Positions 335 through 38,435 of a DNA stretch of 41,559 nt are shown one piece after another. Positions within the stretch are counted from its first letter, which is position 1, and every line of letters begins with the position of its first letter. The translations under genes were made by a program, and so were the position numbers. The notes below the pieces were generated by a model, which was not told where the DNA came from, ran no database searches, and was given only the letters and a program-made list of their open reading frames with translations. Location: contig SVGW01000023.1 in the NCBI GenBank assembly GCA_015056125.1, positions 1 to 41,559 on the forward strand, given 5' to 3'. The stretch is from Clostridiales bacterium (lineage in GTDB: Bacteria > Bacillota > Clostridia > Christensenellales > Aristaeellaceae).

Positions 335-1099
335 AAGGCCATAGGCACTGGCAATGGGCACGGCGGTGTTGCGATGCTCGCTGCGGCCTTTCACATAATG
401 CTTCAAGGTCATGGCTGCCGTGGTGTGACCTGCTGCCGCCTGGGCTTGTTTGATGTCCTTGGTCATGTCGTAGAGGTCAGTCAGCACAGTTGTCCTGAAC
501 CGGCGCGGCGTGATGGCTTCTGCAAAGTTGATATCCTGTTAGAGTCGCTGACACATTTTTTGCGTCTAGGTGTAGGACAACGGCTTCTCACCACCCAGTA
601 CGAAGTGCTCCCCTGCGCTGCGAGTCAGATATGGAATAATCTGAGGCATCAGGTCAATCACGCGGCGGCTTGCATCTGTCTTTGTTCCCTTCAGCAGAGG
701 TTCGTTCCGGTGTGGATGCGTAACAGCACGCTCAATGCGGATCATCTGCTCCACAAAATCAATGTCTTGCCATTGCAGTCCGAGGATTTCTTCAGGACGC
801 AAGGGATGCAGCGTGTGCAGTGCCAGGTAGTTCCTGTCCATCGGCTTTTTGACATCGGCAATGTGCTGCACCAGGTATCGCATCTGCTCCACGGTGTAAG
901 GCTCAATCGGCTTGCTAGCTTGACCCGTGATACGGATGCTGCGCGAACGCAAGGGAGTGCGCTGAATCAGTTCATCTTCTATGGCTTGCTCAAATATCAT
1001 GTTCAGGATATTCTTGACCTTGATTTTCGTCTCCTTTGCACACGTCATGGCATTGAAAACCTTCTGTACATCGACAGGGTGAATATAATATATATACAA
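326..1099 (-). pseudogene. Tyrosine recombinase (phage/ICE integrase), degraded
   Basis: Site-specific integrase remnant. Reading from the high coordinate down, the first 177 codons carry part of the core-binding domain and the start of the catalytic domain. They include the first catalytic Arg in LRPEEILGLQW and the beta-hairpin Lys in KGTKTDASRR. A TAG (566-568) and, eight codons later, a TAA (539-541) interrupt the frame. The same frame then continues without any shift through TPRRFRTTVLTDLYD, the AGHT box and the nucleophile Tyr in TLKHYVKG, ending at a TGA (326-328). The usual HxxR histidine is Arg here. About 120 N-terminal residues normally present are missing beyond 1099. The element is therefore unable to move by itself. 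The open parts are confidently an integrase; inactivity is inferred from the two stops and the lost N-terminus. Confidence 0.88.
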
Positions 1100-1757: not shown

Positions 1758-1787
1758 TTTACACACCGGACAATATCCTGCTATAAT
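1758..1787 (+). promoter_or_regulatory. Promoter of the beta-grasp/DUF4132 cassette
   Basis: TTTACA (1758-1763) and TATAAT (1782-1787) are separated by 18 bases. Transcription would start near 1794, about 34 bases before the first ATG at 1828, and the AAGGAGG ribosome site falls in between. Confidence 0.6.
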
Positions 1788-1827
1788 AGAAGAGATTATA
1801 TTCGTTCTCTAAGATAAGGAGGCCTTT

Positions 1828-2250
1828 ATGACCATCCACATTCACATCCGCCAACTGGGAAAAAAACGCAACACCGTCAGCGCTGTTCCCTTTGATCTAT
1901 CCGCCCAGCCTGCAACGGTTGGCGAGTTGATCACCGCCGTGGTGCAGGAATGCGTGGCGGCGTATAACCAGCGCGTTCGCAGGGGAGAAATGGCCATTCA
2001 TCCGATGACGGAGGAACGGCTTGCCGATATGGAAACCGTAGGGAAGCTAGCCTTTGGCGTGAATTACAGTGAAAAGCAGGCGGACGAGGCAACGGCGATC
2101 GCCAACGCCCTACAGGGCTTTGAGGATGGCCTATACCGAATTTTTCAGGGGCAGAGGGAGCTGACCGGGCTGGACGAAGGGCTCTCCCTGTCTGACAAGG
2201 AGGAGCTGACCTTTATCCGCCTGACCATGCTGACGGGCAGCATATTTTGA
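1828..2250 (+). CDS. Predicted ubiquitin/MoaD-like beta-grasp protein, partner of DUF4132 protein
   Basis: A 140-residue soluble protein of unknown function. The pattern suggests a beta-grasp fold. Residues 2-10 and about 14-26 look like a beta hairpin (IHIHIRQLG, then NTVSAVPFDL), and TVGELITAVVQECVAAYNQR looks like the helix that packs across the sheet. After a helical insert (about 52-95), YRIFQGQRELTGLDEGLSL followed by ELTFIRLTML resembles the third strand, DG-type loop and last strand of ubiquitin, ThiS or MoaD. The C-terminus is LTGSIF, with no terminal Gly-Gly. It has a strong AAGGAGG site and its own promoter. The next gene starts 12 bases after its stop, so the two are surely co-transcribed. 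The fold is inferred from sequence pattern; function is not known. Confidence 0.6.
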   Translation: MTIHIHIRQLGKKRNTVSAVPFDLSAQPATVGELITAVVQECVAAYNQRVRRGEMAIHPMTEERLADMETVGKLAFGVNYSEKQADEATAIANALQGFEDGLYRIFQGQRELTGLDEGLSLSDKEELTFIRLTMLTGSIF

Positions 2251-2262
2251 TGGAGGTACAAC

Positions 2263-5200
2263 ATGACTGAAAGCGGGAATATTTATGAATTGCTCCCCCC
2301 GGCATTGGCGGGCTATGAGGGAACGTTGATAACCCTCCAGAAGCAATCCTTCCGCAATCTGCTAAAGACGGTGGATGACGAGCGGAAAGCATTCCTTGGC
2401 GGATGGACGTCCGGCATGCGGACCGTCGGCCGGGAACGGAAAGCCCTGAACAGGGCGCTGAACGCAGGCGTGAAGCCCTCTGCTTATGCTGAGAAATCGC
2501 TTACCTGGGTGCGGGACAAGGGCTTTGTTCCATCAGAATACTGGCCGGAGCTGCTGGAAGCAATGGATCGCCTGCTGGAGCAGCCTTATTCTATCGGCTG
2601 GGAGCGGCGCTCGTATCGCTCATTAAACTATGGAGCCTATACGAATCGGATCCATTCCATCTTGAGGGATTTTGTGAACGACGTGCTGCTGCCCTTCAAG
2701 CTGGTTGATCTGTTGACCGGTCACGTACCGGAGACGGTCACGGAGTTTATGTCCAAGACGAGTTTTCATACAACCATTGCGCTGGTGGCCCGGATCGCTT
2801 CTGCGCTGGATCGGAACGACAAGCAGGTGGAGCAGGCCATCCGGGACATGATCGACGGCGATGCCAAGCCCTTCTTCATGAGCGAAGTGATTCGCGGCAT
2901 CCTGTGGAGTCATCGGGCTGATATGCATGAAATGCTTGGACGGCTGCTGGTAGCAGCGCGTCTGCAGGAAGGCCTGCGCCAGACCATCTGCGAGAATGCA
3001 GATATGGGTTCGCCGGCAGCCTTCCTTTCGATGATTGACGTGATCGAAAAGAACGACCTGATTCGCTTCTCCTCCGTGAAGCGGGCAGTTGGCGTATGGC
3101 TGGGGCTGATTTCGGAGGAAAGCGGCAGCCTGGACCGGGTGAGCAGCAAGTCCATCGCGCTCATTTCCCGATGCCTCAGGGATGAAGCATTCATCGAAGA
3201 ATGCCTGGCCAGCGAGGACAGCATGCAGATCCACATCGGCCTGTGGGCCATTGGCGTGCGGGATGTGCGCAAGGCGATCGAGCGGGCCGGCGTGCTGGCC
3301 GCCAAGGGAACCCATCATCAGCGATTGTCGGCGGGTTATTTCGTCCAAGGCCTGCAGCGGCCTCTCTATCAGGCGGTGGTAGCGATGAACATCATTGCAG
3401 CCTACCCGGAGGAGCTGGACACGGTGGCGATGTATCTGCCGATGGTGATGGAAAACTGCCTGATTCAGCTCGGCCAGACGGTGAAAAGCGAAGGAAACGC
3501 AACGTGGCAGGAGTATTTTGGAAGCGAACAAGAGGCGCGTTCCTTCCATGCGTTGCTGGTGTCTATCCGTAGCCAGGTCACCAAGAAGCAGGTGTTCGAT
3601 CCCTGCGTTTTCCCGTGGCACAAGGCTGTGTTGGATAAGGGAGCCCTTTCCGAGCGCATCTGCGTGATTGCCCGCCTTTTGGATGACGATCAGCTGATCG
3701 ATGATTCCATTCAATACTTTGGCGATTGCGATCCCTGGAACAGGGAATCGCTGCTGGAAACCAGCTATGGCAGGATGCGCACGCCCAAGCAGCGGCAAAT
3801 GATCCTGACCTCCGTTTGCGACAAGGGCGATATGTGCCGGCGCACCGCCATCAAGCTGGTGGACGCTATGCAGCTGACCAGGGAAGACTATGCCGAACTG
3901 GAAAAATTGCTGCGCTTTAAGTATGCCGATTCGCGCCGCGCAATAATCGGCTGGATGATGAAGCAGGCGGATGATGCGCTGCTTGGCAGCATCGCCCGGC
4001 TGCTGGGGGATAAAAAGAGCGAAGAACGCCGGATGGCTGCGCTGGATATGATCAAGCAGCTCATGGATGAGAATAAGCGCCTTGCGCTGATAGCTCAGTG
4101 CGCCCAGCTGGTAACAGCGTATGAAAATCCTACAGCCAAGGAAAAGACCCTTGTGGATAGCCTGCTGGCCAAGCTTGGCACCGCCCCGGCCCAGGAGGAA
4201 GCGCTGTTTACCGAGGCGGATATGTATCATCCGGTTCTGGAAGATTCGCCGGAATCGGAGCAGGCGGTGCTGACATACATGCGCTATTTCCCCGAATCCC
4301 AATTGGCGGATCAGCTGGGGGGAAGGAAAAAGCGCTGGGCCGATTTATTCTTTAAGAAAAAGCGGGATGAATTTGCCCGGGCCAAGGCGGATTTTAATAG
4401 CCTGCTGGCCTGCTATGAGCAGCATAAGATGGATCCGATCAAAAACCGTGCTGGCGAAGAGATACTGCTGTGCAACCTGCACGGGATGTATCTTGGGCAG
4501 GAGCGCATTGTGCTTCATGAAGTGTGGGATGCCTGGTATCAGGAGCAGGTAAATGATCCGGAACGGCTGCTGAGAGTGTGTATTCTCGCTCACACTGACA
4601 GGAATAGCAGCTCGGATAAGGCCATCGCATCTGCCTTTGGAGAAGGGTATCAGCAGGGGATGTTGCCGCTGAAGGATTTGCGCCGGGTGTATCTGCGGAA
4701 CATCACTGCCGATCTGGTAAAGCAGCATGTGCCGGCATATGACCTAAAGTATATTGCGGCGGCGCTGTTGATTTGGCTGGCAAAGTGCGCAGGGGATAGC
4801 CTTCTGTGGACGGAACCGGAAGGAGATCGGGCCCGTTGGGTCAGCCAGCCCATTGTCAATCAGGATCAGCTGGCATTACTGCTGCAATATATTGATTACG
4901 GGCATGAAGGAATGCTGCCGGCCATTTTCCCGGCAGGTATGCTGCTGTCGGAGCGCATCGAGCGCACCTGGCGTGAGCGAATAAAAAACCAACAGCAGCA
5001 GGGCGACGCTATCGTGATTGAGCATGGCGGCTGGACATCCGTGCAAAGCTTCCACGGGGCAATTCTTGGCGCAATGAACGTTCGTGTGTTCCCGGATTTA
5101 TCTGTGCTGCTTCGTGCCAGCTATCGGGGAATGCTGTCTCGCCGCAGCGTGTATGCATGGCTGCTGACGAGCAAGATGGCCCGAAACGCCGTGCGGGATT

Positions 5201-7467
5201 TAACAACCCTGTCCAGCGTATACCGCGCTGCAGGGCAACAGTATACAGCCCGCAATACATACAGCTACTATACGGGCGCACGGCACACCGAGGAATGCCT
5301 GTGCGGCTACATTTGCAAGAATAAGCCGGAAACGGATGAAGACTTTGCTATGCTGCAGTATGCGGATGAGGTCAGCACGCCGCTTGTGCGCAGGATTATT
5401 GATGCAGAGCTGAAACGCGGCGATACCGAAACGCCCTATTCTCCCCTGGTTGGCGGTATCCATCGCATCTGGGGCGCGGAAGATTTTATGGTGATTCTGT
5501 CCGCGCTGGGCAAGGATAAGCTGCTGCGTTCCTTCTATTTCTCTGTGCAGGGCTATGGCCGCACGGAAAGCCTGTGTACCATGCTGAGCGTGTGCGTTCC
5601 AGCCAAAACGGATACGGCGGATCACCTGCGTCGGCTGATGAAACAGCATAAAATCAGCGAAAAACGGCTGATGGAGGCGGCGCTGTACAGCCCGGAATGG
5701 GTTGAAATAGTGGGCGAGGCCATTGGCCTGCCCTCCTTCCGCCTGGCCGCGTATTACTTTATGGCCCATATGAACGAGGATTTCGATGACGTCCGCAAAG
5801 CGCGCATTGCGCGGTTCACTCCGCTGTCCATTGAGGAATTAAAAAATGGCGCATTCGATATCGGCTGGTTCCGCAGCGCCTATGAGGAAGTGGGCGAAAA
5901 GTATTTCGATCTGATCTATGATGCGGCGAAGTATATCACCTCAGGCGCCAAGCACGCCCGTGCCCGGAAGTATGCAGACGCGGTACTGGGGCGGCTGGAG
6001 CTGGCTGCGACCAAGGATGAGATCATCCAGAAGCGCAACAAGGATCTGCTGATGGCCTACGCCCTCATTCCGCTCTCCGGCGAGGATGATTTGCAGGCGC
6101 GTTATCTGTACATTCAGCAGTTCCTGAAGGAAAGCCGGGGTTTTGGCGCACAGCGCGCTGCCAGCGAGAAGACGGCTGGCGAAATTGCGCTGACCAATCT
6201 TGCTCTGAATGCCGGATATGCCGATAGCATGCGCCTGACCCTGCGCATGGAAAGCCGCCTGGTGGAAGAAAACCGAGCGCTATTTGAACCCTATGCCATT
6301 GATGATCTGAAAGTGCAGCTCACTGTGGACGATCAGGGAGTAACAGGCCTGCTGTGTGAAAAGGGCGGCAAGGCGCTCAAGAGCATTCCCGCCAAATATA
6401 AGAAGAACGAGTACATCCTGCGGCTGAACGATATGAAAAAGCAGCTGGTGGAGCAGCAGCGCCGCGCCAAGCGAATGCTGGAGGACGCCATGGAGGCATC
6501 CACTGTGTTCACTGCCGGGGAACTTTCTGCGCTCATGGGGAATCCCGTAATCGCACCGATGCTTCGCAATCTGGTGTTCAAGCAGGAAGAACGCTTCGGC
6601 TTCATTGACGGCCTGTCGCTCACAGATGCAGATGGCGCTGATACCGTGCTGGATGCTTCCTGCGATCTTGTCGTGGCGCATCCCTTCCACCTGTGGAAGG
6701 CGCAGCAGTGGCTGCCTTTTCAGCGAAAGATCTATGCAGATCATATGGTGCAACCCTTCCGGCAGGTGTTCCGCGAGCTGTATGTCAAAACGCCGGATGA
6801 GCTGGGCAAGGATACTTCTCTGCGCTATGCCGGCAATCAGATTCAGCCTGCCCGCACCATGGCTTGCTTGAAAGCACGGCGCTGGATTGCCGATGTGGAA
6901 GCCGGGCTGCAGAAGATTTACTATAAGGAAAACATCGTCGCCACGATCTGGGCGCTGGCGGACTGGTTCAGCCCAGCCGACATCGAAGCGCCCACGCTGG
7001 AATGGGTGGCATTCCTTGACCGCAAGACCGGGAAACAGTTGAAGATCGATGACGTCCCGGAGATCATCTTCTCCGAGGTCATGCGCGACGTGGATCTGGC
7101 TGTCAGCGTGGCCCATGCGGGTGGCGTCGATCCCGAAACCAGCCACTCTACCATGGAGATGCGCGCAGCTATCCTGTCCTTCACACTGCCGCTGTTTCGC
7201 CTGAGCAATGTGGAGATCCGGGACGGCCATGCCATCATTGCAGGCGAATTGGCGCAGTATAGCGTCCACCTGGGCAGCGGTACCGTGCATCAGATCGGCG
7301 GAACGATGCTCTCCGTGCTGCCGGTGCATTCCCAGCATCGGGGCAAGCTGTTTCTGCCCTTTGTGGATGAAGACCCCAAGACGGCGGAGATCATCTCCAA
7401 GGTGTTGCTCTTTGCCCAGGATGGGAAGATCAAGGACCCCACCATTTTGGAGCAAATTCAAAGGTAA
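2263..7467 (+). CDS. Giant DUF4132/DUF5724-family protein
   Basis: A 1734-residue protein without signal peptide or membrane segment. Most of its length is short amphipathic helices with HEAT-like spacing (clear around residues 450-640, for example RRMAALDMIKQLMDENKRL), so an alpha-solenoid scaffold is likely. The last 300 residues carry the conserved tail of the DUF4132 group: AGNQIQPARTMACLKARRW, ADWFSPADIEAPTLEWV, FSEVMRDVDLAVSVAHAGG (from about residue 1602), YSVHLGSGTVHQ and HSQHRGKLFLPFVDEDPKT (about 1689 onward). No WGR domain is visible at the N-terminus, unlike E. coli relatives. The ATG at 2263 has GGAGG six bases upstream. It follows the beta-grasp gene by 12 bases and is closed by a terminator at 7614. 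The biochemical role is unknown. Confidence 0.8.
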   Translation: MTESGNIYELLPPALAGYEGTLITLQKQSFRNLLKTVDDERKAFLGGWTSGMRTVGRERKALNRALNAGVKPSAYAEKSLTWVRDKGFVPSEYWPELLEAMDRLLEQPYSIGWERRSYRSLNYGAYTNRIHSILRDFVNDVLLPFKLVDLLTGHVPETVTEFMSKTSFHTTIALVARIASALDRNDKQVEQAIRDMIDGDAKPFFMSEVIRGILWSHRADMHEMLGRLLVAARLQEGLRQTICENADMGSPAAFLSMIDVIEKNDLIRFSSVKRAVGVWLGLISEESGSLDRVSSKSIALISRCLRDEAFIEECLASEDSMQIHIGLWAIGVRDVRKAIERAGVLAAKGTHHQRLSAGYFVQGLQRPLYQAVVAMNIIAAYPEELDTVAMYLPMVMENCLIQLGQTVKSEGNATWQEYFGSEQEARSFHALLVSIRSQVTKKQVFDPCVFPWHKAVLDKGALSERICVIARLLDDDQLIDDSIQYFGDCDPWNRESLLETSYGRMRTPKQRQMILTSVCDKGDMCRRTAIKLVDAMQLTREDYAELEKLLRFKYADSRRAIIGWMMKQADDALLGSIARLLGDKKSEERRMAALDMIKQLMDENKRLALIAQCAQLVTAYENPTAKEKTLVDSLLAKLGTAPAQEEALFTEADMYHPVLEDSPESEQAVLTYMRYFPESQLADQLGGRKKRWADLFFKKKRDEFARAKADFNSLLACYEQHKMDPIKNRAGEEILLCNLHGMYLGQERIVLHEVWDAWYQEQVNDPERLLRVCILAHTDRNSSSDKAIASAFGEGYQQGMLPLKDLRRVYLRNITADLVKQHVPAYDLKYIAAALLIWLAKCAGDSLLWTEPEGDRARWVSQPIVNQDQLALLLQYIDYGHEGMLPAIFPAGMLLSERIERTWRERIKNQQQQGDAIVIEHGGWTSVQSFHGAILGAMNVRVFPDLSVLLRASYRGMLSRRSVYAWLLTSKMARNAVRDLTTLSSVYRAAGQQYTARNTYSYYTGARHTEECLCGYICKNKPETDEDFAMLQYADEVSTPLVRRIIDAELKRGDTETPYSPLVGGIHRIWGAEDFMVILSALGKDKLLRSFYFSVQGYGRTESLCTMLSVCVPAKTDTADHLRRLMKQHKISEKRLMEAALYSPEWVEIVGEAIGLPSFRLAAYYFMAHMNEDFDDVRKARIARFTPLSIEELKNGAFDIGWFRSAYEEVGEKYFDLIYDAAKYITSGAKHARARKYADAVLGRLELAATKDEIIQKRNKDLLMAYALIPLSGEDDLQARYLYIQQFLKESRGFGAQRAASEKTAGEIALTNLALNAGYADSMRLTLRMESRLVEENRALFEPYAIDDLKVQLTVDDQGVTGLLCEKGGKALKSIPAKYKKNEYILRLNDMKKQLVEQQRRAKRMLEDAMEASTVFTAGELSALMGNPVIAPMLRNLVFKQEERFGFIDGLSLTDADGADTVLDASCDLVVAHPFHLWKAQQWLPFQRKIYADHMVQPFRQVFRELYVKTPDELGKDTSLRYAGNQIQPARTMACLKARRWIADVEAGLQKIYYKENIVATIWALADWFSPADIEAPTLEWVAFLDRKTGKQLKIDDVPEIIFSEVMRDVDLAVSVAHAGGVDPETSHSTMEMRAAILSFTLPLFRLSNVEIRDGHAIIAGELAQYSVHLGSGTVHQIGGTMLSVLPVHSQHRGKLFLPFVDEDPKTAEIISKVLLFAQDGKIKDPTILEQIQR

Positions 7468-7470
7468 CCT

Positions 7471-7608
7471 CTATAAAATGCGGTCAATTGCGTCCGTGTA
7501 AGCTCCCTTTTTTAACGCTGCGCCCATGATGGAGCGGCACTTGATTGCTGCAGGATACTCCTGTAAAATAGCGGAAGTATGTGATCGCAACTGGGCAATA
7601 TATTCCAT
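7471..7608 (-). CDS. 45-residue orphan frame, possible gene tail
   Basis: An ATG at 7608 opens a frame ending at a TAG (7471-7473), antisense to the end of the DUF4132 transcript. It encodes MEYIAQLRSHTSAILQEYPA followed by AIKCRSIMGAALKKGAYTDA and IDRIL. The composition (helical, Lys/Ala rich, balanced charge) looks protein-like and not random, but no ribosome site precedes the ATG and the gene lies directly behind a terminator hairpin. It is most likely the surviving 3' end of a deleted gene. The family is not recognised. Confidence 0.25.
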   Translation of the reverse strand: MEYIAQLRSHTSAILQEYPAAIKCRSIMGAALKKGAYTDAIDRIL

Positions 7609-7613
7609 AACAG

Positions 7614-7663
7614 AAAGCGCCGCTGGCAATGGAGCTGGCGGCGCTTTGATATATTTGATTTTT
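7614..7663. terminator. Bidirectional terminator between DUF4132 gene and DMT transporter
   Basis: AAAGCGCCGC (7614-7623) pairs with GCGGCGCTTT (7638-7647). On the plus strand it is followed by a T-rich run ending in seven Ts. It closes the cassette on the plus strand and can serve the convergent transporter gene on the minus strand. Confidence 0.7.
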
Positions 7664-11603: not shown

Positions 11604-12737
11604 TTATACCGGGCGGATATCCACGAATTCATCGTTTTCGGCAGATCTCCGGGCAGCCAGGCACATTTCGGCGCTGAGGATGCCCTGGGCAAGGGTGGCG
11701 TGGGATACGTCTTTTCCCCGCACCACATCGGCAAAATTCTGCAGCAGAGCAAAATCGCCCCCGTGGTGGCCTTCCCGGCCGGGGGTCTGCTCCTGATCGC
11801 ATTTGTTTTCGTTGTGACGATACACATTGATCACGCCGGATTTGAAATCAAATTCCAGGGTGCCCTTATAGCCGATGAACCTGGCGCCCCGCTTGCCTGC
11901 GCCTTTCCGGACAACGAAATCCTGCGTGTATACCACGTGCATGCCGGAAGCGTAGCGCACGATGGCGCTGCCGCTGTCCTCGTTGCCGGTGTCTTTGGCA
12001 AAGCAGCAAAAGTCTCCGGGGTTGGGTTCATTGTAGCTCATCACGTTTTTGACGCTTTCGGGGCATTCCTCCTGCCGGGGACAATCTTCGCATTTCTGGC
12101 CCTGGGGCATATCCCCTTTGAAAATCTGCTTGGAATGCATGGCGCAGATGCGCACGGGCTGCTCATTGCCCAGAATGAAATTGATGTAATCAAAATCGTG
12201 GGTAGCCTTCTGCAGGAAAAGCCCGCCGGTTTCGTGATCATCCCGATACCACTTATGGTAATAGCCCCGGCCGTAGTATACGTTATTCACGGCTTCTACG
12301 TGCTGCACTTTGCCCAGCACACCGGAATCCACGATTTCTTTTACGCGCACGGCGATGGTGCAGGCGCGAAGAGGAAAGGATACCACCACTTGATCGCTCA
12401 TGGGCAGCATAGCCTTCAGGGCGTCCAATTGCTCATAGCTGGTGGCTACGGGCTTTTCAAGAAACAGGGGAAGCCCTGTTTCTTTTACCAGCAGAGCCAT
12501 GGGCGTGTGCAGGGAACAGCGGGTGCCGATCATCACACCGTCCAGCTTTTCATTGTTCAACATATCCCGGGCATCGGCATAGAAGGCGATCTCCTGGCCT
12601 TCAAATTGCTTTTTCATATCCTCCACACGGGGGTCTGCAATGGCGGCAATGGAAAAATCTTTGTGATCTTCCAGCAGCTTATCCACCAGGCTGCTCATTC
12701 TCCGGCCGCAGCCGATGACGCCGATTCTGTAATTCAT
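11604..12737 (-). CDS. Gfo/Idh/MocA-family NAD(P)-dependent sugar dehydrogenase
   Basis: A 377-residue oxidoreductase. The N-terminal Rossmann fold is clear (YRIGVIGCGRRMSSLVDKLL) and LFLEKPVATSYEQLDAL holds the EKP lysine motif that contacts cofactor and substrate. The C-terminal alpha/beta domain carries a cysteine-rich insert, KCEDCPRQEEC followed by DFCCF, which is not part of the minimal family fold and could bind a metal. The ATG overlaps the TGA of the DUF4091 gene by ATGA, and AAGGAG lies upstream inside that gene, so translation is probably coupled. It is the last gene of the NagB-like operon. The likely reaction is oxidation or epimerisation of a sugar or sugar derivative, possibly through a 3-keto intermediate. 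Confidence 0.85.
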   Translation of the reverse strand: MNYRIGVIGCGRRMSSLVDKLLEDHKDFSIAAIADPRVEDMKKQFEGQEIAFYADARDMLNNEKLDGVMIGTRCSLHTPMALLVKETGLPLFLEKPVATSYEQLDALKAMLPMSDQVVVSFPLRACTIAVRVKEIVDSGVLGKVQHVEAVNNVYYGRGYYHKWYRDDHETGGLFLQKATHDFDYINFILGNEQPVRICAMHSKQIFKGDMPQGQKCEDCPRQEECPESVKNVMSYNEPNPGDFCCFAKDTGNEDSGSAIVRYASGMHVVYTQDFVVRKGAGKRGARFIGYKGTLEFDFKSGVINVYRHNENKCDQEQTPGREGHHGGDFALLQNFADVVRGKDVSHATLAQGILSAEMCLAARRSAENDEFVDIRPV

Positions 12738-14419
12738 GAAAGCATCTCCTTGATTTTTTCGTTGATCTTCAGCCGAAGGGTCAAAAGCGCATCCTCTTCG
12801 GGGGTAAGCGTGATGGAAAGGGGCGCGCCCAGGGTTTCTTCGCAGAGAGCTTCCACCTTTTCCCTGCCGATGGCGCTCTCCAGCAGCTTCAGGGCCCGCA
12901 CGTCATCCATGGCCTCCTGCATCATTTTTTCCCGGATGGAGGGGGCGGCGTGGCACACGTCCTTCCCAAATACCGGATAGCAAAGATGAGCTGCGCCGGG
13001 GAAGATTTTGTAGCCGTTGGGAGCGGAATGGGGATTGAAGCGGCCCTGGCTGAGCCGGTCGTAGTAGAAATTGTAGCCCCAGTGAAGGAAGCCCAGGGCA
13101 TTGTAATGATACAGCATGAGCCCCAGCACCCGGGTTTTGGCAGCGGTGTTGCTCAGGAGGCGGTTGGTGAATTCGGTTGCGCTGCCGGTGTAATAAAGCC
13201 AGAGAGAGGGGCAGCGGCCCAAGAAATCATCCGCCTTGCGCACGGAGGCAATGGGCTGCTTCACCAGCCCCTGCAGGAAAAATTCCGGATTGCTCATGGC
13301 GTCGGCAGTGATATCGTTTGCAAGCAGGTCTTTTACCGTTTCCACCGCTCGGCGATAGGAGGGCAATTGCTCGATGATAGGTTCATCGGATATATGGAAA
13401 AGCAACTGATCCCGGATTCCCTCCTCCTTGGCAAAAGCGAAAAAGGCGGAAAGATAGGCCCGGATAAAGGAAACATATTCTTCTCCTGCAGCATCGGTAT
13501 CAAAGCCGAAAATACGCTTGCCTTCCCGGTCGTAGATATTGGGGGCATGGGAGGCGCCCCACTGGGAAAAGAGGTGGGAATGCTCAAAATAGCGGATGCC
13601 GCAGGCTTTGGCATGGGCAATAAAGGTGCGCATCCTGTCAAAGCCAAAATGCCAGCCGGAGGGCTCCTTTTTCACATCTACCAATTGCACGTTCATCCTT
13701 TCGCTCCCCACGGGGGTATCCAGGGGCGGAGTGAAGGCAGGGAGCAGAAGGGTATTTTGCCGGTGGCGCACCATGTTTTTTACGTAGTCATCAAATATTT
13801 CATAGAATTTTTCGCTGTAGAGCTCCACATCGAAGGTGTCGCAGAGCACATCCTCATGAAACCAGTTGGTGTAATACAGGTTCTGCTCCGGCAGCGCCGC
13901 GTCGATCACCTCCAGGCGGAGGGATTTTTGTGCCAGCACCCGATTGTCGGAAAGGCTGAGGAGGGTGATATCCACGTCATAATCTCCGGGGGTGAGGAGA
14001 GCGCTGTCCGGGTTCACGGTGAACCATACGGCCTGATAATCGGAGGAATAGGCATTAAGGAGATTATCGGTATCCTTTTCAAAGCCGTCTTTGATCACCG
14101 GGTCGGCAGGCCTTGGCAGAAGCAGATCGGGGAAAAGCCCGGGCCTGTCGGATTCAAAGCCGGGAAGATGATGGGGATTCCAGGGCTGCAATACGGGGAG
14201 AAAATCCACCCGCCAGGCAGAGATGGGCAGGCCTTCGCACCGGGCGGATACGCTTACTGGCTGGCAAAGGGCCTCTTCCTCCGCCCGATAAAGGGCCTGG
14301 AAGGAAAAGGGCTCGTTTTTCAGCAGGCTGGCCTGTTTCAGCTGCCGGGGATCAATCTCCTGCTCGGTGCGCCCGGGCAGGTGCTTGTATTGTGAAGAGA
14401 CGATTTTCAGCAGGTCCAT
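12734..14419 (-). CDS. DUF4091 domain protein, putative glycoside hydrolase-like
   Basis: A 561-residue cytoplasmic protein. The N-terminal half is beta-rich. The C-terminal half is a predicted TIM barrel of the DUF4091 type, with VQLVDVK, YFEHSHLFSQWG, LLFHISDEP (an acidic pair at a strand end, as in glycosidase active sites) and LGFLHWGYNFYY. It is clearly homologous to the gene at 36795. GAGGTG precedes the ATG at 14419, which lies three bases after the nagA stop codon. Being between an N-acetylhexosamine deacetylase gene and a sugar dehydrogenase suggests work on an amino-sugar-containing glycan. Catalysis by this domain is not established here. Confidence 0.78.
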   Translation of the reverse strand: MDLLKIVSSQYKHLPGRTEQEIDPRQLKQASLLKNEPFSFQALYRAEEEALCQPVSVSARCEGLPISAWRVDFLPVLQPWNPHHLPGFESDRPGLFPDLLLPRPADPVIKDGFEKDTDNLLNAYSSDYQAVWFTVNPDSALLTPGDYDVDITLLSLSDNRVLAQKSLRLEVIDAALPEQNLYYTNWFHEDVLCDTFDVELYSEKFYEIFDDYVKNMVRHRQNTLLLPAFTPPLDTPVGSERMNVQLVDVKKEPSGWHFGFDRMRTFIAHAKACGIRYFEHSHLFSQWGASHAPNIYDREGKRIFGFDTDAAGEEYVSFIRAYLSAFFAFAKEEGIRDQLLFHISDEPIIEQLPSYRRAVETVKDLLANDITADAMSNPEFFLQGLVKQPIASVRKADDFLGRCPSLWLYYTGSATEFTNRLLSNTAAKTRVLGLMLYHYNALGFLHWGYNFYYDRLSQGRFNPHSAPNGYKIFPGAAHLCYPVFGKDVCHAAPSIREKMMQEAMDDVRALKLLESAIGREKVEALCEETLGAPLSITLTPEEDALLTLRLKINEKIKEMLS

Positions 14420-36794: not shown

Positions 36795-38435
36795 ATGGAA
36801 TATAAAATTATTTCCTGCGTAGAAAAGATTTTTCCCGATGGACGGGGTACGGACGGCGCGGCGCCCAAGCTTTCTGCCCTCAGGGGCGAGAGCATTTCTT
36901 TCCAGATTGCTTTCAGGGCAGAGGCGGCGGATTCCCCGTATTTCTGGCCGCAGGTGATTTCCCCGATTAAGGATTATATCACCGTGCGCAGGGTGGAAAG
37001 CGTGCCTGTGCGCATTTCCCGCACCATGGAAAACAGCGATGCGGATTATCTTTCTCTGGCACCTGGAATGTATCCTGATCTGCTGGTGGAACTCAAGGGC
37101 AAGGCTGTTCTTTGTCCTCAGGGCCAGTGGCGTTCTTTGTGGGTGGAGGCGGAGATTCCCGCAGATGCGGAAGCCGGCGTATTCCCCATAGAGGTTTCCT
37201 TTCAGCCCTTGGAGGGAGAGGAGATCATCCGGGCGAAGACGGAATTGGAGATCATTCCTGCCCGGCTTCCCGAGCAAAGGGTGATCCACACCGAATGGTT
37301 CCACGCCGATTGTCTGGCGGATTATTATGATGTGCCCGCTTTTTCTCAGCGGCATTGGCAGATCGTGGAAAACTTTGTAAAAACGGCGGTCAAAAGGGGC
37401 ATGAGTATGCTGCTTACCCCCCACGTGACCCCCGCTCTGGATACCTATATTGGAGGCGAACGCACCACCGTGCAACTGGTGGATGTGAAAGTGGAAAAAG
37501 GTGAATACTCCTTTGATTTTTCCAAGCTCAAGCGCTGGATAGATATGGCCCTTGATTGCGGCATGAAATACTTTGAAATGGCCCATCTTTTCACTCAGTG
37601 GGGCGCCAAGGCCGCGCCCAAGGTGATGGCTGAAAAGGATGGAACCTATCAGCGCATCTTTGGCTGGGATACCCCGGCAGTGGGCGGGGAATACACCCGG
37701 TTCCTCCATGCGTATCTGCCGGAGCTTACACAAAAATTAAAGGAATGGGGCGTAGCGGAAAAGTGCTATTTCCATGTGTCGGATGAGCCCAATGAAGAAA
37801 AGCTGCCTTTTTACAAGGCGGCCCGGGAATCTTTGGGGGACTTGCTGGAGGGCTTCCCCATTATGGACGCCATGAGCCATTATCCCATTTATGAAGAAAG
37901 CCAGATTCAGTGCCCGGTGGTATCCATTAAGGCGGTGGAAGGTTTTCTGGAAAAGGGTGTAAAAGATCTGTGGGGCTATTATTGCTGCGGCCCCACCCAG
38001 ATCATGACCAACCGCTTCCTGCAAATGCCCCTGCATCGCACCCGGGTCATGGGGATGCAGTGGTATAAATATCAGTTGGTGGGCTTTTTGCATTGGGGCT
38101 ATAATTTCTATAATATCATGCATTCCGCCGCCCCTATCGATCCCCATTTGGATACGGAGGCGGGAGGCCATTTCCCGGCGGGGGACGGCTTTATCGTCTA
38201 TCCCGGCCGAGATGGGAAGCCGGAAGAATCCATTCGCCTGATCGCCATGCATTATGCCTTCCAGGATATGCGGGCTCTTTCCCTGCTGGAAAGCCTGATT
38301 GGCCGGGAAGAAACCCTTCGTATCCTGGAAAAGAATGGAGAGATTACCCTGGAAAAGTATCCCCGCACAGGGGATGGGCTGCTGGCCCTGCGCACTTTGG
38401 TGAACCAGGCGATTCGGCAGGCCGTGAACGCATAA
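36795..38435 (+). CDS. DUF4091 domain protein, second copy
   Basis: A 546-residue paralogue of the protein encoded at 12734-14419. Shared blocks are TTVQLVDVKVEKG, YFEMAHLFTQWGAKAAP, CYFHVSDEPNEEKLPFY and LVGFLHWGYNFYN, in the same order and spacing. The N-terminal 170 residues form a beta-rich domain (ISFQIAFRAEAADSPYFWPQ). The C-terminal TIM-barrel-like part carries the acidic SDEP. No signal peptide, so it acts in the cytoplasm. AAAGGAG lies upstream of the ATG. It heads a three-gene operon with a ceramidase-like and a phosphodiesterase-like protein. The reaction is unknown, though the barrel and acidic pair suggest a glycosidase. Confidence 0.78.
   Translation: MEYKIISCVEKIFPDGRGTDGAAPKLSALRGESISFQIAFRAEAADSPYFWPQVISPIKDYITVRRVESVPVRISRTMENSDADYLSLAPGMYPDLLVELKGKAVLCPQGQWRSLWVEAEIPADAEAGVFPIEVSFQPLEGEEIIRAKTELEIIPARLPEQRVIHTEWFHADCLADYYDVPAFSQRHWQIVENFVKTAVKRGMSMLLTPHVTPALDTYIGGERTTVQLVDVKVEKGEYSFDFSKLKRWIDMALDCGMKYFEMAHLFTQWGAKAAPKVMAEKDGTYQRIFGWDTPAVGGEYTRFLHAYLPELTQKLKEWGVAEKCYFHVSDEPNEEKLPFYKAARESLGDLLEGFPIMDAMSHYPIYEESQIQCPVVSIKAVEGFLEKGVKDLWGYYCCGPTQIMTNRFLQMPLHRTRVMGMQWYKYQLVGFLHWGYNFYNIMHSAAPIDPHLDTEAGGHFPAGDGFIVYPGRDGKPEESIRLIAMHYAFQDMRALSLLESLIGREETLRILEKNGEITLEKYPRTGDGLLALRTLVNQAIRQAVNA

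Follow-up and report, generated by a model that had tools for sequence, protein, structure and literature searches.

What might a small ubiquitin-like protein and the giant protein encoded directly behind it do together in a bacterium? The question is raised by two adjacent genes of a Clostridiales bacterium of the family Aristaeellaceae (assembly GCA_015056125.1), located within positions 1 to 41,559 of contig SVGW01000023.1, a stretch of 41,559 nucleotides referred to here as the window. The small gene (1828-2250, plus strand, ATG start) encodes a protein of 140 amino acids (aa) and the large gene (2263-7467, plus strand, ATG start) a protein of 1734 aa. The pairing of the two genes is real and recurs in several phyla, and the small protein is homologous to DR_A0165 (SEP068184) of the radiation-resistant Deinococcus radiodurans. 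With a probability of roughly 50%, we suggest that the two products form a non-covalent complex of two subunits acting in stress, to which the small protein contributes a dedicated ubiquitin-like subunit.

Pairing and distribution of the two genes

A pattern scan of one genome per species (84,980 species) returned 403 relatives, of which the closest 80 were retrieved. The large gene lies directly downstream of the small gene in 75 of these 80 genome loci, in a few of them in pieces, which bears out the original prediction of a two-gene unit. Measured by the longest open reading frames (ORFs), the gap has a median of 12 bp and falls between -40 and 50 bases in 65 of the 75. In four of the remaining five loci the contig ends 131-369 bp past the small gene; the genome of the fifth (L092) has a large gene on a separate contig, without a small gene found beside it. 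No further neighbour recurs with the pair in the 80 loci. Over 70 pairs, small-protein and large-protein distances are correlated with r 0.84, a value to which common ancestry and two or more duplicated loci contribute.

Within the family of the window's host, whose own assembly is incomplete (2.86 Mb in 122 contigs, ~82% complete), the small protein was found in 10 of 200 genomes and DUF4132 in 13. These counts support the accessory nature that had been predicted for the cassette. Eight of the nine carriers besides the window genome have a complete small gene with the large gene directly downstream, cut by a contig end in two of these loci (L033 and L036), and the ninth (G186) holds the pair in pieces on three contig ends. 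The pieces of G186 (L037, L038 and L039) include two different large-gene copies with 88% DNA identity, and the last 128 bases of the third contig, which stops inside the small gene, recur at the start of the large-gene contigs; either a duplicated cassette or a mixture of strains would account for this. Across the phylum, the small protein was found in 9 of 398 genomes, and DUF5724, a domain of the large protein, scored above its cut-off in the identical nine; a tenth DUF5724 match (G211) was sub-threshold and without the small protein. The large genes of G202 and G347 look broken, because DUF5724 matched in two frames. When only high-quality genomes of the phylum are counted, the small gene is present in 8 of 355.

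The Bacteroidota gave a similar picture. The small-protein profile matched in 9 of 296 genomes, and DUF5724 scored above its cut-off in seven (one borderline); the six strong small-protein matches are six of these seven DUF5724 genomes, the seventh being borderline, and the match in G806 is probably due to chance. Both genes are present in six genomes and are adjacent in the usual order in five of them. G820 (L179:4790-11391) has the order large gene, 346-aa gene without a Pfam match, small gene. Searching plasmid records, we found the pair in Bacteroides finegoldii and in all three Deinococcus records examined (a fourth match, H5, was left out). Beyond the window's phylum, the pair is known from Bacteroidota, Deinococcota, Actinomycetota and Alphaproteobacteria, and in some of these the large protein has a short form. 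Some copies stand on records listed as plasmids, and three Bacteroidota rows fall among Bacillota rows in a tree of the C-terminal module of the large protein. The cassette has probably spread between lineages. In Fusobacterium vincentii the small gene is present as a broken fragment (L065, near 12001-12132), and no large gene lies within 24 kb of it.

A predicted ubiquitin-like fold and a shared C-terminal module

No Pfam, NCBIfam or PADLOC model matched the small protein at E<=1. Its predicted structure (predicted local distance difference test score, pLDDT, of 79) is a ubiquitin-like beta-grasp fold, in agreement with the original prediction: the elements follow the beta-beta-alpha-beta-beta order, and the model matches ubiquitin-fold proteins, including MOCS2A, Urm1 and ubiquitin.

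The large protein had been assigned to DUF4132/DUF5724, and Pfam supports both assignments and adds a third. DUF5724 (PF18991; E-value 6.5e-273, 909.3 bits against a gathering score of 25) covers residues 88-1329 (2524-6249), DUF4132 (PF13569; 1.3e-42, 146.2 bits against 27) residues 1369-1541 (6367-6885) and DUF7737 (PF24879; 1.2e-34, 118.8 bits against 27) residues 1631-1732 (7153-7458), all encoded on the plus strand. Conservation is highest in the C-terminal third. The last 400 residues are well predicted (pLDDT 88), and structure comparison of this model returned no clear functional match.

The small gene also stands directly upstream of short partners of 858-865 aa, which have DUF4132 and DUF7737 without DUF5724. 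We found such short forms in three places of two Bacteroidota genomes (two in G694, one in G841; the small-protein matches are weaker there), in Novosphingobium humi (with overlapping stop and start) and in Nonomuraea gerenzanensis (Pfam not run on that copy). DUF4132-DUF7737 is the portion common to long and short partners. All six DUF7737 places in 153 Bacteroidota genomes coincide with places of the small gene. DUF4132 without DUF7737 occurs in six places of four same-family genomes (G178, G044, G074 and G119), none of which gave a small-protein match; a 915-aa DUF5724-DUF4132 protein of G616 (L184) is likewise unmatched by DUF7737 and has no small gene next to it; and Escherichia coli, among 14 control genomes, has DUF4132, with DUF5724 and DUF7737 unmatched. 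Since long and short partners have the DUF4132-DUF7737 module in common, it is the likeliest docking site for the small protein, with DUF7737 as the proposed docking region. A plasmid of Acetobacter oryzifermentans (L199), typed as mobilizable, encodes a DUF4132 and DUF7737 protein near helix-turn-helix and BrnT toxin genes; no ubiquitin-like gene was found in this locus.

The conserved tail of the small protein

The window's small protein ends in G137-S-I-F140 (codons 2236-2247, plus strand), so it lacks the Gly-Gly end of conjugating and sulfur-carrying ubiquitin-like proteins. We aligned 99 tails, taken from 80 genome loci, 17 rows of alignment A2 and 2 plasmid records and including a few duplicates. 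An aromatic residue comes last in 92 (W 82, F 6, Y 4; the others are G 3, L 3 and I 1), 90 have Gly at position -4, and Gly makes up 99% of the G137 column. Only one of these 99, from D. radiodurans, ends in Gly-Gly. More distant sequences differ: the end is LTALAGG in all three Deinococcus sequences examined and PLVGG or PLKGG in all five small proteins beside short partners. Gly-Gly thus stands exactly at the stop in all eight of these homologues, which come from Deinococcota, Bacteroidota, Alphaproteobacteria and Actinomycetota, and its first Gly aligns with the Gly kept inside the G-x-x-aromatic end of the window's clade.

In the unrooted tree of the C-terminal module, which has 38 chosen rows, a fully supported branch splits short from long forms; the short side includes two rows without a small gene and the long side includes Deinococcus. 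As Gly-Gly is found on both sides of this branch, it appears the likelier old state of the tail, with some doubt left by the root and by several long rows.

The Deinococcus relative and DNA damage

DR_A0165 has been described as having a MoaD/SAMP1-like predicted fold (PMC9650054, cited throughout from the part of its text that was available). In that part, the protein is said to occur only in Deinococcus and its gene to have no DdrO motif. Both claims conflict with the sequences analysed here, and PMC8533742 (likewise available in part) places DRA0165, which forms a putative operon with DRA0166, within the DdrO regulon and gives -83 as the position of its motif. The 20-mer of the DdrO motif is found exactly at L064:11892-11911, ahead of the DR_A0165 start at 11974, and each of the three Deinococcus loci examined has a motif-like site, departing from the 15-base consensus at 1, 2 and 1 positions. 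PMC8533742 also reports that tagged DRA0166 protein goes up after mitomycin C in the wild type and not in the absence of irrE. One new finding here is the homology of the window's small protein to DR_A0165, which, judged by sequence, extends the DR_A0165 family beyond Deinococcus.

One short-form pair of G694 follows an S24-peptidase gene (L180:7069-7956), and the other follows a umuC-type polymerase gene (L181:5919-7208), itself preceded by a UmuD-like frame (labelled from its translation). In D. psychrotolerans, a photolyase-type flavin adenine dinucleotide (FAD) domain is encoded upstream of the pair. These neighbours suggest a connection with DNA damage that is not limited to one lineage, and a role in stress may extend outside Deinococcus.

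A proposed two-subunit complex and its alternatives

In our proposal, the 140-aa protein would be a subunit of MoaD/ubiquitin-like fold, its gene standing immediately before that of its partner. It would form a dedicated complex with the giant protein, docking on the C-terminal DUF4132-DUF7737 module and doing so non-covalently in the window's clade. The conserved tail would be read by this module, as L-x-G-x-x-aromatic here and as L-x-G-G in distant relatives. The long DUF5724 region, which the short form lacks, would serve as an additional scaffold. The whole would be an accessory cassette, apparently spreading between lineages, that serves a stress response and has become known as part of a DNA-damage regulon in Deinococcus. 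The two genes, their close linkage and co-occurrence, the predicted fold, the conservation of the tail and the shared module were observed here, and the DNA-damage induction and the antioxidant phenotype in D. radiodurans come from the papers cited; we infer the physical complex, its docking site, the reading of the tail, the non-covalent mode and a stress role outside Deinococcus.

Several observations weigh against this proposal. In the model of the small protein the C-terminal tail has a pLDDT <50, so the role given to the tail draws on its conservation. Covariation between the two proteins (70 pairs) is dominated by few columns and indicates no single interface. Next to DUF7737 in one Acetobacter plasmid, and likewise at one Nonomuraea place, no small gene could be detected, so docking on this module would not be an absolute rule. 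The small gene is present in just 1 of 103 high-quality same-family genomes. For the window's own lineage, none of ten regulator motifs showed clear enrichment ahead of 78 cassettes, mostly from Bacillota, and the link to DNA damage may therefore be confined to some lineages. Finally, deletion of DR_A0165 is reported to raise total antioxidant capacity and catalase activity, and DR_A0165 to bind thioredoxin and to co-purify with 157 proteins (PMC9650054).

These last results, with a pull-down of Trx1 in the same paper, would suit a redox regulator: by binding thioredoxin, the small protein would reduce antioxidant capacity, and the large protein would either stabilise it or be its target. The list of 157 co-purifying proteins is broad, however, and in neither D. 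ficus nor D. psychrotolerans is a thioredoxin gene annotated beside the pair; we consider this explanation improbable. The main rival is conjugation or carrier chemistry, in which the small protein would be a true modifier or sulfur carrier. A housekeeping E1/MoeB-like enzyme would activate its C-terminal Gly, and its dedicated ligase, receptor or acceptor enzyme would be the DUF4132-DUF7737 protein. The Gly-Gly exactly at the stop of all eight homologues from Deinococcus or beside short partners, the first Gly kept in 99% of the 99 sequences, and the structural matches to MOCS2A, Urm1 and ubiquitin together with the predicted fold of DR_A0165 are all in keeping with it. The window's genome has one match to ThiF (E1) above the cut-off, but this lies on another contig and contains an in-frame stop. 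No E1, E2 or JAB match was obtained in the 28 window ORFs scanned, which are part of those present, or among the 25 commonest of 169 families from 135 neighbours. Moreover, with W, F or Y ending 92 of 99 sequences, the tail of the window's clade would need trimming first. In its covalent sense, the modifier-like character that had been predicted is not supported for the window, given its G-S-I-F end and the absence of E1 and JAB matches among the ORFs scanned, but all eight homologues do have the Gly-Gly end. We regard such chemistry as possible, though doubtful. A related scheme, to our minds rather unlikely, would be a DNA-damage-linked bacterial ubiquitin-like system in which a Gly-Gly protein is handled by DUF4132-DUF7737 as ligase, receptor or acceptor, and in which the aromatic-ended branch of Bacillota and Bacteroidota, the window included, is secondarily non-conjugating.

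Position beside integrase debris had also suggested cargo for defence or stress. Mobile cargo beside integrase remnants that acts against phages or in conflict between elements would agree with the patchy distribution, the very large multi-domain protein, the adjoining remnant, the copies on plasmid-listed records and the Bacteroidota rows among Bacillota rows in the tree. Against it, PADLOC returned no match for either window protein at E<=1 and none for two homologous pairs at E<=0.01, no PADLOC model was found in more than 3 of the 135 neighbours, and the loci surveyed share no conserved neighbours. Neither viral contigs, in pattern scans that reach close relatives, nor phage records yielded a relative, and the regulation by DNA damage in Deinococcus (PMC8533742) also speaks against conflict. 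The defence half of the original prediction was therefore not upheld, and the stress half is better supported, through the Deinococcus homologues; a conflict system is quite unlikely. The small protein might instead be an assembly helper that aids folding of the giant protein and stays outside the working complex, which would agree with a small gene that comes first and is tightly linked. The conservation of the tail to its last residues suggests a lasting contact, although a folding role could also produce it, and we find this explanation very improbable. The two-subunit stress complex is accordingly the reading that we prefer.

Layout and surroundings of the cassette

The two ORFs share the plus strand and are separated by a 12-base gap, and each has a Shine-Dalgarno-like sequence ahead of it: AAGGAGG at 1816-1822 for the small gene and GGAGG at 2252-2256, inside the gap, for the large gene (both plus strand). 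Upstream, a sigma-70-like promoter, TTTACA-18-TATAAT with TG before the -10 (extended -10), lies at 1758-1787 on the plus strand and agrees with 11 of 12 consensus bases, as a consensus match. Downstream, the site scan found an intrinsic-terminator-like hairpin with a 14-bp stem (7614-7647, plus strand), followed by GATATATTTG. The predicted promoter, two genes 12 bases apart and terminator were thus all located, the first and last as promoter-like and terminator-like sites. The window has 5 promoter-like and 7 terminator-like sites against shuffled means of 4.1 and 5.9, so those of the cassette are backed only by their strength and placing.

The integrase taken to be dead is a truncated tyrosine integrase remnant (566-1099, minus strand) with a partial Phage_integrase match of 26.9 bits, just below the cut-off of 27.1, and with in-frame stops in the sequence beyond. 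Between it and the cassette lies a 70-aa ORF on the minus strand (1424-1636) with weak, sub-threshold ribbon-helix-helix/NikA-like matches. The cassette is set in a glycan-use region of the window, with two GH123-type glycoside hydrolases (12734-14419 and 36795-38435) and melibiase-like and GH127 genes.

Significance and comparison with known systems

Proteins with DUF4132 are found across many bacteria, E. coli included, and have hardly been studied. The pairing gives one branch of them a dedicated partner that is tied to a published knock-out phenotype and a DNA-damage regulon in Deinococcus; it corrects the Deinococcus-only claim for DR_A0165 and makes direct tests possible. In the open PubMed Central literature we found no description of the pair as conserved outside Deinococcus, and DUF7737 is not named in the part of that literature searched. 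If the Gly-Gly end is functional, the pair would add another bacterial ubiquitin-like system.

The MoxR and von Willebrand factor A (VWA) surroundings expected for DUF4132 were met in one locus of the same family (L041, G178:C2), one of the six places with DUF4132 but without DUF7737, where a protein with BspA-like leucine-rich repeats (LRR) and DUF4132 is encoded beside MoxR-type AAA+ and VWA (DUF2201) genes. The two large proteins have the DUF4132 domain in common, but that of L041 carries LRR_5 where the window's has DUF5724, is unmatched by DUF7737 and lacks an accompanying ubiquitin-like gene; the expected context thus applies to a different DUF4132 type and not to that of the window. The MoxR-vWA ternary systems (PMC7159879, available in part) are likewise large multi-component accessory systems, whereas the 28 window ORFs scanned, on both sides of the cassette, gave no MoxR or VWA match, and DUF4132 is never mentioned in the text of that paper.

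With MoaD, ThiS, Urm1 and ubiquitin, the small protein shares the beta-grasp fold and, in its distant homologues, the Gly-Gly end. It differs from them in some 50 residues, with two extra helices, between the main helix and strand 3, in the aromatic-ended tail of the window's clade, and in that no E1 match was seen beside its gene among the ORFs scanned. TmoB and YukD resemble it as ubiquitin-fold proteins encoded with larger partners, TmoB being a bound subunit and YukD, according to work cited there, non-conjugated (PMC1779556, in the part available). Their partners differ from the large protein, and the likeness seen is one of fold and gene arrangement. A further close parallel is the DR_A0165-DR_A0166 operon. 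DR_A0165 differs in ending with Gly-Gly and in sitting behind a DdrO motif, and as in the window, the small homologue stands directly upstream of a DUF5724-DUF4132-DUF7737 protein.

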